Below, piece after piece: positions 2,300 to 24,937 of a stretch of DNA of 27,379 nt. The notes below the pieces were generated by a model, which saw nothing but the letters and a program-made list of their open reading frames with translations, did no database searches and was not told the origin of the DNA. The stretch comes from a virus. The translations under genes and the position numbers were made by a program. The stretch spans positions 1 to 27,379 of the IMG/VR virus record IMGVR_UViG_3300044627_006928; one strand, written 5' to 3'. How positions within the stretch are numbered: position 1 is the stretch's first letter; each line of letters begins with the position of its first letter.

Positions 2300-2746
2300 A
2301 TGGGATACGCAGTTTCAACAATTTATGATATCGGACAGAAGTTTTCTTCGTCCATCGACCAAGGCTCCATGTACATGGAGGTGTCGTACACCAACCCCTT
2401 GAAGTTTGATCCTACGCTGACGATCATGGAGCCTCGCTCCGAAGCAATCGTGGAGCCTACGGTGTCGAACTATGTCGCAGCCACTCGCCCGTTCTTCATG
2501 GGTTCGTTTGATGGCTTTTGGATTCACAAGGTCTACAACAACGGTATTCTTGTGATGACCGTGCAGACCGTTGATCAGGATATGTTCATTCCCGTGCAGC
2601 ATGACCGTGTTGAAAGCGTGTCGATGGGATACACGGAGAGCATTCCCTATGACGGCCCTGTGCGTCCTCCTGTGCCTGCTCCGGGCGTCGGAGCCATGCT
2701 TGGACTGGCTGCTCTGTTTGCCATCGGGCGCAGACGCTTCAGTTAA
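2300..2746 (+). CDS. Protein with PEP-CTERM-like C-terminal sorting tail
   Basis: A 148-residue protein. The first 120 residues look like a soluble beta-rich domain. The end is striking: a Pro-rich linker (DGPVRPPVPAPG, about 118-129), a 13-residue hydrophobic segment (130-142) and a closing GRRRFS. This three-part layout matches PEP-CTERM and related exosortase-type tails, whose VPAPG variants are common in environmental Gram-negative bacteria. A usual PEP-CTERM protein also has an N-terminal signal peptide, and none is visible here, so a simple C-terminal membrane anchor is the main alternative. The codon choice is richer in G+C than in the neighbouring AT-rich genes, so transfer from a host-like genome is possible. 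Gene assignment sure, role unsure. Confidence 0.65.
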   Translation: MGYAVSTIYDIGQKFSSSIDQGSMYMEVSYTNPLKFDPTLTIMEPRSEAIVEPTVSNYVAATRPFFMGSFDGFWIHKVYNNGILVMTVQTVDQDMFIPVQHDRVESVSMGYTESIPYDGPVRPPVPAPGVGAMLGLAALFAIGRRRFS

Positions 2747-3810: not shown

Positions 3811-3884
3811 CGGGCATTAACTCAGCTTGGTAGAGTGCTTGCTTTGGGAGCAAGATGCCGTTGGTTCAAATCCAGCATGCCCGA
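3811..3884 (+). tRNA. tRNA-Pro (TGG)
   Basis: A complete cloverleaf. The acceptor stem CGGGCAT pairs with ATGCCCG, the anticodon arm is CTTGC-TTTGGGA-GCAAG with anticodon TGG, and the T arm carries TTCAAAT. CCA is not encoded. A coding region starts only 6 bases (all T) after the discriminator A. Confidence 0.95.
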
Positions 3885-3890
3885 TTTTTT

Positions 3891-4481
3891 ATGAACGTTA
3901 ATTTTTTAAACAATTACTGGCAGCAAAAAAGTGTGAGAGCCGATAAGCACTTTGATGCTCTTGATAAAAATCTTTTGTCCAACATCAATTGTCCCGGTTC
4001 ACCGAGAGAAAAATTGAAGACAATGTACAGGGGAACTAAATGTTGGGATATGCATTTTTTACAAAAAAAAGTGGCAATTGAATATAAAACAATTGCGACA
4101 GAACAAATAATAAACACAAGTATGCAAAGAGGTTTGCATTTAAATTTAAACAAATCAATTGGAAACAGAATTGAAGAGGCAATCGGATCTGCGATAGATT
4201 TAAAACACTTTGATCCGGAATATAAACTTGGATATATTCTTGTATTCACTTTACCTAGAAATAAAAACATAACAATCCCAAAGAAAAAAATAGATAAGAT
4301 CATAACAAAATTTGATACAATCATAAAAAATAAAATATATGATTTCTTTTGTCCCTTGATGACTTTGGGTATTGACGACCATATCGAATTGTCCGAAGAA
4401 TACACCTATTATAACTTTGTAAATGAAATAAATTTCGTTCCATCAAAAAATACTGGACGACTTTCAGAATACTTTGTATAA
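3891..4481 (+). CDS. XhoI/PaeR7I-like restriction endonuclease
   Basis: A 196-residue protein with the signature of the XhoI/PaeR7I type II restriction enzyme family (PD-(D/E)XK fold). TKCWDMHFL (49-57) gives the catalytic Asp53, VAIEYK (61-66) gives the E-x-K pair, and GNRIEEAIGSAIDL (91-104) matches the family's NNRtEEaiGsaxDLw block, followed by LGYILVF. Family members cut CTCGAG; target and activity here are unknown. It is shorter than XhoI (about 245 residues). No partner methyltransferase is adjacent; the one at 549-1094 is distant and on the other strand. The gene is very AT-rich compared with its neighbours and starts directly after tRNA-Pro without a ribosome binding site. Both facts suit a recent arrival. 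A longer frame from 3855 would run through the tRNA and is rejected. Confidence 0.75.
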   Translation: MNVNFLNNYWQQKSVRADKHFDALDKNLLSNINCPGSPREKLKTMYRGTKCWDMHFLQKKVAIEYKTIATEQIINTSMQRGLHLNLNKSIGNRIEEAIGSAIDLKHFDPEYKLGYILVFTLPRNKNITIPKKKIDKIITKFDTIIKNKIYDFFCPLMTLGIDDHIELSEEYTYYNFVNEINFVPSKNTGRLSEYFV

Positions 4482-4486
4482 TAAAT

Positions 4487-4516
4487 TTGACAGATAATAA
4501 ATCTGTGTCATATTCA
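4487..4516 (+). promoter_or_regulatory. Possible sigma70-like promoter with dyad
   Basis: TTGACA (4487-4492) is a perfect -35 box, followed at 18 bases by a weak TATTCA. Between them CAGAT-AATAA-ATCTG forms a small inverted repeat that could be an operator. It would serve the membrane protein gene at 4521. Confidence 0.4.
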
Positions 4517-4520
4517 TACT

Positions 4521-4682
4521 ATGAAAACACTTTTAAATAAAATTGCAGTGCCAATCCTTGCTTTAATTTTTATCAATATCATTGGACTTACATACCATTA
4601 TAACTACGAGGGCGCAGTTGTTGGAAGCGTTGTTGGGATGATTGTTGGCTTTCTTGCATCAGAGATCAGAGCAAAGTTTTAA
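4521..4682 (+). CDS. 53-residue two-span membrane protein
   Basis: The frame runs from ATG at 4521 to TAA at 4682. The product starts MKTLLNKIAVPILALIF, has a first hydrophobic span at about 8-24, a short polar turn (TYHYNYEG), and a second Gly/Val-rich span at about 32-46 (AVVGSVVGMIVGFLA), ending SEIRAKF. It forms a small membrane hairpin. A GxxxG-like pattern in the second span suggests helix packing. No family is recognised. It lies between a promoter-like sequence and tRNA-Glu. Codon use and hydrophobic pattern support a real gene. Confidence 0.6.
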   Translation: MKTLLNKIAVPILALIFINIIGLTYHYNYEGAVVGSVVGMIVGFLASEIRAKF

Positions 4683-4699: not shown

Positions 4700-4773
4700 G
4701 GCCCCTTCGTCTAGTTGGTCTAGGACACGGCCCTTTCAAGGCCTTAACATGGGTTCGAATCCCGTAGGGGTCA
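4700..4773 (+). tRNA. tRNA-Glu (TTC)
   Basis: A complete cloverleaf. The acceptor stem GGCCCCT pairs with AGGGGTC (one G-U), the D arm is typical of tRNA-Glu, the anticodon loop is CTTTCAA with anticodon TTC, and the T loop is TTCGAAT. Position 27-43 is mismatched. No encoded CCA. A coding ATG follows after 2 bases. Confidence 0.95.
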
Positions 4774-4775
4774 CT

Positions 4776-4958
4776 ATGAATAAAAAACAAGAAAAATTAT
4801 TTTGGCTTGCAGCCATGATTGGTTCATGGCTGATTGCTTTGTGGGTTGTGTGGTCCATGCTCGTTGAGCATAATGCTAGCATCATCCACGTAATCGGAAT
4901 GTCTTTGATTTGCTATTTCACCACCGCATGCTATATTAGCACATACAACTATGAGTAA
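4776..4958 (+). CDS. 60-residue two-span membrane protein
   Basis: The product starts MNKKQEKLFWLAAMIG. It has hydrophobic spans at about residues 8-27 and 35-54, with a short loop (VEHNAS). The Lys-rich start suggests both ends face the cytoplasm. The ATG lies 2 bases after the tRNA-Glu discriminator, so there is no room for a ribosome binding site outside the tRNA, and the mature 3' cut would leave an almost leaderless message. The frame opens earlier (4749), but that part is tRNA. The end overlaps the next gene by 8 bases. No family is recognised. Confidence 0.65.
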   Translation: MNKKQEKLFWLAAMIGSWLIALWVVWSMLVEHNASIIHVIGMSLICYFTTACYISTYNYE

Positions 4959-5205: not shown

Positions 5206-5648
5206 ACCCTTTTGTTGAGAATCATCCCGATCAGATCGACAAACTGATACAGGACTATCCCGTTGTCTTCCGTCACATGGATACCACGACAGTCTCCGGC
5301 CTCCCTGCTGGCTGGTACACGATCATGGATAATCTCTGCTCTGAACTCACTCCGCTTCTTGAAGAAGCCCTGCAAGAGAATCCAGAGACTCCCGAGGAGC
5401 CTCTGTTCAGCATACTGCAGATCAAGGAGAAGTTCGGTGGTCTTCGTTTTTATTATACGATGAACACCAAGAACGATGATCTCTACAGAAAGGTCCAGGC
5501 AATGGTTGACAATGCCGAGGACGCTTCCTACGAGACTTGTCAGATTACGGGAAAGCCCGGTGTTCTGTGTAAGAGCGGTAGTTGGTACATGACTCTTTGC
5601 GAAGAGTCTAGAATCTCCATGGGTTACAAGATTATTGGCAATGGATAA
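5202..5648 (+). CDS. Conserved-looking phage protein with Cys pair region
   Basis: A 148-residue protein starting MNPFVENHPDQIDK. A longer frame from 5181 exists, but the ATG at 5202 overlaps the previous TGA as ATGA and has AAAGGAAAAGA upstream, so it is preferred. The centre contains ILQIKEKFGGLRFYY (about 78-92), and the last third holds YETCQITGKPGVLCKSGSWYMTLCEE with three Cys. I have seen the combination of KFGGLRFY followed by Cys-containing turns in phage proteins of unknown role, and a small metal site is possible. It overlaps the SpoU methyltransferase gene by 8 bases. Confidence 0.65.
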   Translation: MNPFVENHPDQIDKLIQDYPVVFRHMDTTTVSGLPAGWYTIMDNLCSELTPLLEEALQENPETPEEPLFSILQIKEKFGGLRFYYTMNTKNDDLYRKVQAMVDNAEDASYETCQITGKPGVLCKSGSWYMTLCEESRISMGYKIIGNG

Positions 5649-6183
5649 CAGAAACCTAATCGATCACTATAAGTACTGGACAGACGATGCAATTCGCGCA
5701 GATTTGGATATACGGCGTTTTAATTATTCAGTTGTCTGTTGTAATATTGGCAATGATTTTAATATTGCAACCGTCATTCGTAACGCTAATGCGTTTCTTG
5801 CAAAAGAAGTGGTTATATATGGAAATAAAAAATATGATCGTAGGGGCACGGTGGGCACTCACCACTACACTAATTTTAATCATGTTAGGACTGTTGATGA
5901 TCTTTCAGAATATTTTCGAGGAATCCGAGGAGAGGTTCGACTCCTAGGAGTTGATAACGTCAAGGATTCGATAAACATCAATGATTATGATTTTTATCCA
6001 AATATTCATTATGTAATGATTTTTGGTCAGGAACAGATAGGCGTACCTCAAAACGTACTAGATATGTGTGATGACATTCTTTATATTCCCCAGTACGGTT
6101 CTGTGAGAAGTATAAATGTTGGAACTGCGTCTGGAATTATGATGAATGCATATTGTACTAAAATATCTTCCTTCGTGGTGTAA
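5641..6183 (+). CDS. SpoU/TrmH-family RNA 2'-O-ribose methyltransferase
   Basis: A 180-residue SPOUT enzyme with the three SpoU motifs: motif 1 NDFNIATVIRNANAF (38-52) with the conserved Asn and Arg, motif 2 MIFGQEQIGVP (126-136), and motif 3 YIPQYGSVRSINVGTASGI (148-166), which forms the SAM-binding trefoil knot. Family members methylate the 2'-OH of a ribose in tRNA or rRNA. Given the phage tRNAs around it, a tRNA target is plausible. The start is ATG at 5641 (overlapping the previous gene); TTG at 5635 is less likely. Its last 15 bases, encoding SFVV and the stop, are also the 5' end of tRNA-Gln. Confidence 0.85.
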   Translation: MDNRNLIDHYKYWTDDAIRADLDIRRFNYSVVCCNIGNDFNIATVIRNANAFLAKEVVIYGNKKYDRRGTVGTHHYTNFNHVRTVDDLSEYFRGIRGEVRLLGVDNVKDSININDYDFYPNIHYVMIFGQEQIGVPQNVLDMCDDILYIPQYGSVRSINVGTASGIMMNAYCTKISSFVV

Positions 6184-6239
6184 CGGTAACACGGGAGACT
6201 TTGGATCTCTCTTTCTAGGTTCGAATCCTAGCGAAGGAA
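6169..6239 (+). tRNA. tRNA-Gln (TTG)
   Basis: A complete cloverleaf. TCCTTCG pairs with CGAAGGA, the anticodon loop CTTTGGA gives anticodon TTG, and the T loop is TTCGAAT. The first 15 bases overlap the end of the SpoU-family gene. No encoded CCA. Confidence 0.95.
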
Positions 6240-6263
6240 TTTTTAAAAATAAAGGAAAGTAAA

Positions 6264-22785: not shown

Positions 22786-24399
22786 TTATATCCTGTAAGA
22801 AGATGCTTTTGTTTGTTTTATTGGTTGAGCTGTTTTTATTGATGAAAATGATGCTTGAGGATTCATTTGATTCAATTCTCTAAAACCTGGTTCAAGATTA
22901 TCATTTTCAGACGATGGAACAAAGCCAGACAATGACGCAGGCTTTGATGCAGCTTGTTCAAAGCTACCCGTTGGTTTTTGTTGCGTGCCTCCAAATAAAT
23001 TATTTGTTTTTTGTGAAACTTGTGAACCAGTTTGAGTAGAAGATGTAGAAGTAGTTGGAGGCGTAGAAGCAGTGGTGCTAGTGCCTGTTGGTTTTGGGGT
23101 GCTGCCCGAAGTACCAGCAAATTTTCCAGACTGTTGTTGGTTGGCGGCTGCAATTGCTTCAGGACTTGCTCCTAAATTTGACATCGACCCTGGTTTTGTT
23201 GATGGAGTTTTTCCAGCCGCACGGGAAGCTGCTTCAGATGCAGATACTTGTGGAAGACCTCTCTTAGATCTTTCCGCAGCAATAAATTCGTTTCTTTTTT
23301 TATCCCACTCCTGATAACTTTGACCCGACGCTGGACGAGCTAATTCTGGTGGTAAATTTATTTTTTCTTTCTGTTTAGCCTGTGTATCGTTTCTATATTT
23401 TAAATCACCTGAAACTCTTTTAGCAATATCACTATCGCTCATATCCATGTCGCCGCGAAGTTGTTGTTGAAATTTCATCTTATTTCTTGCAACAGCCATT
23501 CTTCCACTTTCACTCATTTTGCTAGTGTCTAGCTGTTCAATTGCAGCAAGACGTTGTTCTGCTTCTAATTTCTTTTTTGCATTTTGTTTTTTGTAGTAAT
23601 CTGTTCTTGCAGATGAGAATTTTTCATCCTCGGTTGGTTCTTTTTTCTCTGTTGCTTTTGCTGCATCAGCTGCTTCTTTTTCTTTTTGCGCTCTGGCTGC
23701 GGCTTCTCTTTCTTCATCTGCAGTAGGAACGGCAGGCCCTTCAGTATCAACTCCAGCTGTTGCCGGTTTCGCTTGTGCTGCCTGTGCTTCTCTTTCTTTT
23801 ACAAAGTCAGGTTTTACACCATATCTTGCACCGGTACTAGTTGTTTTTATAGTAGATCCCGCAACTTGTGCTTCTGCCTCTTCCGTTTCCTCTTCGTCTT
23901 GTTTTTGTAATTCTAATTGTTTATCTCTAGTAGCTTGTGCAGCAGCTTCTTGATCCCTTAAACTTACATACTGTTTTCTTTGTTCCGGTGTGGCATTATT
24001 TGGATCAATGTCTCTGAGCTGTGTTTGGATATCTGCCAATTCTCTTGCACTAGTTTGAAGCGTGTCTTGGTTAAATTTTTCTTCATCTTGCTCGTATATT
24101 TTTTTAACAGATTCAGTCAAAGAACGAAATGGATTGCCTGCAATGTTTTTTGTAAAAGCAACTATACTTGGCGTCCCATTATTTTTTATTTCTTGCGACT
24201 TATTGATTGCTTTTTTGACAGCCGATGTCATATTTTCATTATAAGAAACAGTGGGGGCTGGTTTTGGTTTGCTGGTTTCTAGCAAACTTTTAACAGTATT
24301 AACTACTGATTCTGTCTTAGGTTTCACGTTAAAGTTAGGTTTTTTTGTCAAGAAATCCTTGACTTCCCAGTAAAATTGTTTATCTTTTTTATTATCCAT
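22786..24399 (-). CDS. Large Ala/Gln/Lys-rich late protein with shared repeat cassette
   Basis: A 537-residue protein. The start MDNKKDKQFYWEVKDFLTKKP is followed by a helical region with SLLETSKP and NPFRSLTESVKKIYEQDEEK. A long charged, probably coiled-coil region (about 100-350) is rich in Glu, Ala, Gln and Lys. The C-terminal 150 residues are Ser/Thr/Pro/Gln-rich and contain SMSNLGASPEAIAAANQQQ, a cassette found again in the protein at 25950-27182. Low complexity and the late promoter (CTAAATA, 10 bases before the ATG) suggest an internal head, ejection or tail component. There is no enzyme motif. It ends 1 base before the next gene. Confidence 0.7.
   Translation of the reverse strand: MDNKKDKQFYWEVKDFLTKKPNFNVKPKTESVVNTVKSLLETSKPKPAPTVSYNENMTSAVKKAINKSQEIKNNGTPSIVAFTKNIAGNPFRSLTESVKKIYEQDEEKFNQDTLQTSARELADIQTQLRDIDPNNATPEQRKQYVSLRDQEAAAQATRDKQLELQKQDEEETEEAEAQVAGSTIKTTSTGARYGVKPDFVKEREAQAAQAKPATAGVDTEGPAVPTADEEREAAARAQKEKEAADAAKATEKKEPTEDEKFSSARTDYYKKQNAKKKLEAEQRLAAIEQLDTSKMSESGRMAVARNKMKFQQQLRGDMDMSDSDIAKRVSGDLKYRNDTQAKQKEKINLPPELARPASGQSYQEWDKKRNEFIAAERSKRGLPQVSASEAASRAAGKTPSTKPGSMSNLGASPEAIAAANQQQSGKFAGTSGSTPKPTGTSTTASTPPTTSTSSTQTGSQVSQKTNNLFGGTQQKPTGSFEQAASKPASLSGFVPSSENDNLEPGFRELNQMNPQASFSSIKTAQPIKQTKASSYRI
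23099..23202 (-). repeat. Repeat cassette copy A (104 bases)
   Basis: These 104 bases match 26893-27059 with one base change, once the extra 63-base unit in the second copy is left out. The copies lie in two different late genes about 3.8 kb apart and encode the same 21-residue segment plus flanks, so a recent duplication or gene conversion is likely. Confidence 0.9.
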
Positions 24400-24409
24400 G
24401 GCTGTAAAA

Positions 24410-24416
24410 TATTTAG
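24410..24416 (-). promoter_or_regulatory. Late promoter element CTAAATA
   Basis: CTAAATA, TTTTACAGCC, ATG at 24399. It is divergent from the + late promoter six bases away. Confidence 0.65.
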
Positions 24417-24421
24417 AATTA

Positions 24422-24429
24422 TATAAATA
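24422..24429 (+). promoter_or_regulatory. Late promoter TATAAATA (exact T4 consensus)
   Basis: TATAAATA, then CTTAAAAGGT and the ATG at 24440; AAAAGG gives a short ribosome binding site. With the minus element at 24410 it forms a compact divergent late promoter pair. Confidence 0.75.
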
Positions 24430-24439
24430 CTTAAAAGGT

Positions 24440-24937
24440 ATGAAGAAACAGGTACTCCTGTTAAATCAAGACAACACTCCTTTAAATATTATCACTGTCG
24501 CCAAAGCTTTTAAGCTTCTTTCTAAAGATAAAGTTTGGATCGATGAGACAGCACAAGAATATTATGAAGTTGTCTCTGTCTCAAAAATTGTAAGAATTCC
24601 AAAAATTTTAATATTAAAATATTATATTCGTTTGCCATACAAAAAAGTAGCACCGAATAGAAAAAATATTTTTAAAAGAGACCAATATTGCTGCCAATAT
24701 TGTGGAAAAACTTTATGCGATGAAACTGCCACTATTGATCATATTATTCCAAAATGTAAAGGTGGGGGGTTTTCTTGGACTAATTTGGTAGCAGCATGCA
24801 AAAAATGCAATTTAACCAAGGGAAATAGAACACCAAAAGAAGCTAGCATGCCTTTGTTAAAGAAACCAAAAGAACCTTCATATGGTTTCTTGTTTGAAGA
24901 TATGCTAATTACTTTTAAGAGACCAAACAATGCCTAA
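24440..24937 (+). CDS. HNH endonuclease
   Basis: A 165-residue protein. The N-terminal part MKKQVLLLNQDNTPLNIITV...KAFKLLSKDKV is the usual lead of a widespread bacterial and phage HNH family. The nuclease part has YCCQYCGK (zinc CxxC, 85-88), ATIDHIIPKCKGG (catalytic Asp-His, 100-101), NLVAACKKCN (second CxxC, 120-123, and the HNH Asn) and KGNRTP. It probably cuts DNA; mobile or packaging-related roles both occur in the family. The frame is open from 24398, but the ATG at 24440 follows a late promoter and ribosome binding site and matches the family start. It overlaps the next gene by 8 bases. Confidence 0.88.
   Translation: MKKQVLLLNQDNTPLNIITVAKAFKLLSKDKVWIDETAQEYYEVVSVSKIVRIPKILILKYYIRLPYKKVAPNRKNIFKRDQYCCQYCGKTLCDETATIDHIIPKCKGGGFSWTNLVAACKKCNLTKGNRTPKEASMPLLKKPKEPSYGFLFEDMLITFKRPNNA

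Follow-up and report, generated by a model that had tools for sequence, protein, structure and literature searches.

An optional XhoI/PaeR7I-like nuclease gene at a tRNA locus of T4-like phages: a candidate mobile endonuclease

The nuclease gene and its surroundings

We analyzed the complete IMG/VR record IMGVR_UViG_3300044627_006928 (27,379 bases, in the following the window), which is probably a phage fragment. It encodes an exonuclease, the best database relatives of which are T4-like cyanophages, a RuvC-like resolvase, GroES, a SpoU methylase and an HNH protein, together with eight tRNA/tmRNA genes. The ORF studied here lies between tRNA-Pro and a small membrane-protein-like ORF (Table 1). 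Its open frame runs from 3855 to 4481. Position 3855 falls within tRNA-Pro and orthologues begin at the position that corresponds to ATG 3891, with a stop two codons upstream of this ATG in loci L022 and L023; we therefore place the start of the gene at ATG 3891.

Table 1. Coordinates of the nuclease gene, its motifs and other features of the window
Feature	Position	Strand	Basis or remark
General class-I methyltransferase ORF	549–1157	−	PF13489
ORF with PEP-CTERM-like sorting tail PVPAPGVGAMLGLAALFAIGRRR	2300–2746	+	tail seen by eye; no Pfam match
tRNA-Pro (TGG), left border of insertion	3811–3884	+	ARAGORN; Rfam 64 bits
XhoI/PaeR7I-like PD-(D/E)XK nuclease, 196 aa	3891–4481	+	motifs, profiles, model
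Asp53 codon (K-x-W-D)	4047–4049	+	invariant 13/13; catalytic role inferred from PD-(D/E)XK motif
E64-Y65-K66 (ExK), putatively catalytic	4080–4088	+	invariant 13/13; in predicted strand 61–69
NRIEEAIGSAIDLK helix motif, residues 92–105	4164–4205	+	R93, E95, E96, A97, G99, D103, K105 invariant 13/13
Sigma-70-like promoter TTGACA-16-CATATT, before next gene, near right border	4487–4514	+	sequence match
Small membrane-protein-like ORF, 53 aa, syntenic right neighbour	4521–4682	+	beside empty site in L103, L110, L149
tRNA-Glu (TTC)	4700–4774	+	downstream of nuclease in 8/8 group A carriers
SpoU RNA methylase	5641–6183	+	overlaps start of tRNA-Gln
tRNA-Gln	6168–6240	+	
Permuted phage tmRNA, tag ANEMAMAA	8297–8697	−	Rfam RF04321, 78.4 bits
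HNH endonuclease gene	24398–24937	+	possibly another mobile nuclease

The original prediction had described an AT-rich, XhoI/PaeR7I-like nuclease gene that starts directly behind a tRNA and combines D...ExK and NRxEEAxGSAxDL motifs, and the sequence bears out this description. The ATG lies 6 nt past the tRNA-Pro end. GC content is 0.299 in the gene and 0.387 in the remainder of the record, in which 18 of 536 equally long segments reach such a low value. In all 13 family members compared, the GC content of the gene is below that of the surroundings. The protein carries D53, E64-x-K66 and NRIEEAIGSAIDL, i.e., the residue strings K50-C-W52-D53, E64-Y-K66 and N92-R-I-E-E-A-I-G-S-A-I-D-L104. The motifs are not chance occurrences, because the catalytic residues are kept in relatives at 37–58% identity. 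Moreover, dN/dS was 0.03–0.28 in 10 of 12 pairs with computable dS, two pairs being saturated, which indicates that the nuclease codons are under purifying selection.

The promoter-like sequence near the right border is weak evidence by itself, as six such sites were found in comparison with 5.2 expected in shuffles; a TTGAC...TA stretch is present at its position also in the empty sites of relatives. Some further features of the window recur in related phages. The overlap of SpoU and tRNA-Gln is found again in several of them, e.g., L103, L104 and L109, and homologues of the PEP-CTERM-like ORF occur in many sister phages. The tmRNAs of relatives bear other tags, e.g., ANIKAAPMRMAA.

Relationship to XhoI/PaeR7I and distribution

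Against the Pfam XhoI profile (PF04555) the window protein scored 16.3 bits (E 0.0096), with 55 of 191 positions matched, which is below the curated cut-off of 25 bits. This was its only Pfam match. With the same profile, 9 of 13 family members were found at E-values of 1 or lower, the best being 2.3e-4. The PADLOC profile for type II restriction enzymes (REase_II) gave E 5.6e-4, and we set aside PHROG 30470 (E 0.042) and other PHROGs, which do not describe the nuclease family. A profile-profile comparison of 13 representatives of the 22 short-protein records (set A3) with 12 canonical XhoI-family proteins (set A4) yielded a match at 98.8% (E 7.7e-17) over 157 columns. Here the catalytic D, ExK and the R-x-E-E-A-x-G motif align with the canonical set, and D53, E64, K66, R93, E95 and E96 are invariant in all members of A3. 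The catalytic residues are intact, and no Pfam family other than XhoI matched the window protein; a better match to another family or a loss of these residues would have spoken against the XhoI assignment.

The short proteins share K-x-W-D, ExK and N-R-x-E-E-A-x-G-x-A-x-D with XhoI and PaeR7I. However, they are about 45 residues shorter (196 aa for the window protein, about 235–250 aa for XhoI/PaeR7I), they lack the N-terminal part, so that the match starts at canonical column 53, and the GNNFN(N) loop before R93 is not conserved. As they miss both the N-terminal region and the NNFNN loop of the canonical proteins, the short proteins are not to be assumed specific for CTCGAG. In a tree with canonical XhoI proteins, a branch supported at 100/100 divides the two sets. 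From these comparisons we regard the ORF as a remote homologue of XhoI/PaeR7I and the short proteins as a clade separate from the canonical family.

An AlphaFold model of the window protein (pLDDT 81, pTM 0.80) has the PD-(D/E)XK fold with its catalytic strands. Its top structural match was the type II restriction enzyme PspGI (Z 9.2 over 142 residues), followed by NucC (Z 9.0), BbvCI (8.8) and BstEII (8.6); the catalytic domain of I-Bth0305I, with Z 7.0, was within the common range. Foldseek alone gave no PDB match to the model at E 0.001, and a PDB sequence search gave no relative of the nuclease.

Relatives were gathered by a motif scan of IMG/VR plus further scans. The short protein occurs in 22 IMG/VR records including the window, mostly T4-like phages, which we assigned to group A (window, L022, L023, L024, L025, L026, L028, L158), group B (L027, L074 and a broken copy in L029) and group C (L053, L070, L071, L072, L073, L076, L077, L078, L080, L081, L082). 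L025 and L028 are near-copies, as are several group C records. The record of L029 (G008) shows apparent frameshifts throughout, and both its nuclease copy and its methyltransferase are broken. With the window protein, tblastn found no close relative among 50,697 phage records and 72,556 plasmids, nor did it in the phage records with a group C member. A peptide-pattern scan of bacterial genomes found no relative, and a DNA motif scan of bacterial genomes gave 15 loci, of which five were canonical XhoI-like (L057, L061, L065, L067, L068; L067 is incomplete and was excluded from the canonical alignment) and none belonged to the short clade. A further pattern scan returned 40 loci, i.e., 16 previously known family members and 24 chance matches. 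The short clade was thus not found in the isolate phage, plasmid and bacterial collections searched, and a limited, non-exhaustive literature search found no publication on an XhoI-family phage nuclease.

Insertion points, recognition sites and modification genes

In the window and in L158 the nuclease stands between tRNA-Pro and the 53-aa membrane ORF. These two flanking genes are 34–47 nt apart, with no nuclease between them, in L103, L110, L149, L114 and L136, in agreement with the predicted insertion behind tRNA-Pro. DNA identity between the window and nuclease-less L103 is 95.6% up to position 3886, and the next DNA-level match begins only at 4942. In L022 and L023, the nuclease is flanked by a PEP-CTERM-like ORF on one side and the membrane ORF on the other; L109 has these two ORFs directly side by side. 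In L026 and L028 the nuclease is placed after orf1987. In the group C loci examined (L072, L053, L070, L078, L081) it lies between gp44 and a 97-aa ORF; this site is empty in Synechococcus phage S-BM3, whose DNA matches 95% of a 20 kb query at 91.5% identity. The gene follows psbD in L071, and in G029 it belongs to a row that also includes a no-Pfam ORF, Mom, a no-match ORF, HNH, methyltransferase, GroES and DNA polymerase (gp43). We fetched 80 relatives via the SpoU methylase gene, five of which carry the nuclease. The membrane ORF together with the preceding 700 bp is visible in 29 of them, including the five carriers. The comparison with these empty alleles indicates that the gene is optional and is found at several unrelated insertion points between conserved genes, as are free-standing homing endonuclease genes.

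At the gp44 site, three of four members have a copy of the gp44 3′ end at the end of the nuclease gene (19–22 of 24 nt identical to their own gp44). The fourth, L078, matches its own gp44 at 12 of 24 nt, and members at other sites match the gp44 3′ end at 6–12 of 24 nt. In L072 (9320–9885), this copy makes up an 18-bp exact direct repeat around the nuclease, and L081 likewise has such a repeat. Identity between G027 and S-BM3 is uneven around the insertion, with 97% for gp44 and 78% for the next ORF, which by itself proves no transfer.

We consider it very improbable that the gene is a domesticated nuclease with a phage housekeeping role, e.g., in repair or packaging, or a decayed one that lacks function. 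Its sparse distribution would fit, as would the broken copy in G008, a record that appears frameshifted as a whole. However, low dN/dS together with invariant catalytic residues argues against decay, and the precise presence or absence of the gene between sister phages argues against housekeeping.

Recognition sites were counted on both strands and compared with a second-order Markov expectation (observed/expected in the following). CTCGAG was absent from all 11 carrier records counted, the window included. CTCGA counts were 1/19.6 in the window, 0/20.9 in G016, 0/20.1 in G012, 1/12.9 in G007, 7/60.0 in G009, 19/59.0 in G023, 2/16.4 in G022 and 1/22.3 in G029; for group C they were 19/28.5 in G027, 14/31.0 in G032 and 5/12.9 in G026. 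Nuclease-less controls gave 47/77 (S-BM3, three pieces), 37/53 (S-PM2), 8/13 (P-HM1), 35/69 (S-RIM50), 27/57 (Bellamy), 27/41 (S-CAM8), 37/35 (T4) and 84/76 (KVP40).

Scarcity of CTCGAG had been expected to support cutting of host or rival DNA. Such an enzyme would be a solitary restriction-type weapon, acting on host or rival-phage DNA at a short XhoI-like site that the phage's own genome lacks, and its mobility would be incidental. The missing CTCGAG sites of the carriers fit this explanation, as do the near absence of CTCGA from the window, G016, G012, G007 and G029 and the Mom gene of G029. However, CTCGAG was equally absent from the controls S-BM3, five other cyanophage segments and KVP40, with only T4 having sites (14). 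The 75 nuclease-less relatives, some of which may hold the gene outside the visible stretch, gave 6/138 for CTCGAG and 237/801.5 for CTCGA, compared with 0/9.5 and 3/59.8 for the five carriers among the 80. Among loci of at least 10 kb, CTCGA was missing altogether from 15 of 55 non-carriers (e.g., L110, L149, L167, L177) and from 3 of 5 carriers; the rank test of these carriers against the non-carriers gave p 0.018, uncorrected for relatedness and with carriers that are partly near-copies. The carrier G023 has 19 CTCGA sites. Also, the canonical XhoI-family loop is not kept in the short clade. We hence consider the weapon explanation rather unlikely. Site avoidance is ruled out as its proof, because this phage group and marine cyanophages avoid CTCGAG regardless of the gene. 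From these counts, avoidance appears to be a property of the phage group, to which carriers add at most a weak extra signal.

The lack of CTCGA in nuclease-less loci perhaps reflects a host restriction system. Other short sites are depleted as well. AGCT and ACGT are absent from G029 (L090, L091; about 149 and 184 expected) and from L027 (35 and 38 expected), which suggests strong host restriction or self-avoidance. In the S-RIM50 segment L097, GATC is found 80 times with 420 expected, a depletion unlike that of other cyanophage segments.

The prediction of an orphan gene with no adjacent methyltransferase stood for the window record, a 27 kb fragment in which PF01555, PF02086, PF00145 and PF05869 found no DNA methyltransferase; this sets it apart from XhoI/PaeR7I type II enzymes with a linked cognate partner. 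The search for modification genes gave a mixed outcome over the carrier records tested, with several types in some of them and no constant one. PF01555 matched 2 of 9 records (G022, G008), and in L027 an N6/N4 methyltransferase lies directly behind the nuclease, 3 nt apart. PF02086 matched 10 of 21 records at E 0.001, eight of them over the cut-off and all of these in group C, where a D12 methyltransferase lies about 0.4–0.6 kb downstream of the nuclease. PF00145 (C5) matched 3 of 14 records, the group A carriers G007, G016 and G036, 2–4 kb upstream of the nuclease. Mom (PF25680) was found in 1 of 14 records, G029 (L090, 6467–7381), within the row of genes upstream of DNA polymerase. PF05869 matched 0 of 13 records and the hypermodification families QueC and thymidylate synthase 0 of 14; the MT-A70 count of 0 of 13 is uninformative, since its control gave no match either.

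These neighbours could mean that the nuclease is the restriction half of a restriction-modification pair, with its methyltransferase elsewhere in the phage genome or represented by the common cyanophage Dam-like or C5 enzymes. The close pair in L027 and the downstream D12 genes of group C would agree with this, as would the C5 gene, found in 3 of 5 carriers and 5 of 75 non-carriers (Fisher p 0.006, uncorrected for relatedness). However, the three methyltransferase types belong to different families. Moreover, S-BM3, which has no nuclease, carries the D12 gene in the corresponding position (95.6% identical), matches to this gene occur in 562 phage records, and the C5 gene occurs in nuclease-less L110 (96%), L118, L120, L147 and L181. 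The longest group A records, G009 (82 kb) and G023 (136 kb), possibly fragments, gave no match to PF01555, PF02086, PF00145, PF05869 or Mom. As the D12 and C5 genes are also present in nuclease-less phages, we reject a dedicated methyltransferase as a general rule, and we judge the pair explanation improbable.

A homing-type reading and its known counterparts

A gene that is optional, occurs singly in several intergenic positions, has low GC and lacks a constant partner leads us to a homing-type reading. We give about even chances that the ORF encodes a free-standing endonuclease with the XhoI/PaeR7I fold and is a mobile gene of T4-like phages, where we infer homing and the cut site. In a mixed infection, the enzyme would cut the DNA of a relative devoid of the nuclease, at a site which is missing from the carrier genome or has been removed by the insertion. 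When the break is repaired from the carrier genome, the recipient would gain the nuclease along with flanking genes, in the window the tRNA-Pro/tRNA-Glu segment, in the manner of T4 SegB. More tentatively, and somewhat short of an even chance, the XhoI/PaeR7I fold may be the origin of a further lineage of free-standing homing endonucleases among cyanophage-related T4-like phages, which would spread tRNA genes and photosystem or replication gene neighbourhoods between co-infecting phages.

Some observations count against the homing-type reading. The protein is one compact domain and has no separate DNA-binding module. To our knowledge, the known XhoI enzymes are restriction enzymes with short palindromic sites, and a 6-bp cutter would be toxic and not homing. 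The methyltransferase behind the L027 nuclease, the C5 genes upstream in three group A carriers and Mom in G029 fit a restriction role. The type II-like cutting of host or rival DNA in the original prediction, taken without homing, is the less likely reading, and site counts lend it no support. Cutting of rival DNA fits a homing-type element and a plain host-killing restriction enzyme alike, and the apparent multi-locus mobility points more to the former.

Homing endonucleases are known to have folds in common with restriction enzymes. If the homing-type reading is true, the XhoI-type clade would be a direct example of a family of restriction enzymes that has moved into a homing lifestyle, or out of one. 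The nuclease would then be a candidate driver of the exchange of tRNA-gene and psbD/gp44 neighbourhoods in T4-like environmental phages. Moreover, the short clade would offer compact new nucleases with measurable specificity.

Several known systems resemble the short clade. PMC2988022, in the part available, describes twelve free-standing endonuclease genes between conserved genes of T4, with segB between tRNA genes. According to excerpts of PMC13096335, SegB homologues show significant co-location with tRNAs and bring about the amplification of tRNA loci, and nuclease genes at exchange borders are described in the accessible text of PMC10448857. The short clade resembles such endonucleases, e.g., SegB, in being encoded by an optional gene that stands singly between conserved genes, next to tRNA, clamp loader or photosystem genes, and in having no constant modification partner. 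In contrast, the T4 free-standing endonucleases are GIY-YIG or HNH enzymes as far as given in that part of PMC2988022, and the short clade has a predicted PD-(D/E)XK XhoI fold. F-CphI, which adjoins psbA in cyanophage S-PM2, is likewise a free-standing endonuclease by a photosystem gene, as is the L071 member behind psbD, but differs by its Endo VII DHHRN motif (PMC6083498, in part).

The homing families named in the available sections of PMC6083498 include the I-Ssp6803I family, a PD-(D/E)XK homing endonuclease, and do not include the XhoI family. The short clade shares the PD-(D/E)XK restriction fold with I-Ssp6803I, while the searches made gave no sequence relationship between the two. I-Ssp6803I itself uses a restriction fold for homing and is intron-encoded. 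PacI, as described in the part of PMC3488263 at hand, is similarly a restriction enzyme with no methyltransferase in a genome free of its sites; however, it is bacterial and not a mobile phage gene. We conclude that the short proteins are a real and conserved clade of XhoI-fold nucleases, the genes of which are probably mobile among T4-like phages.
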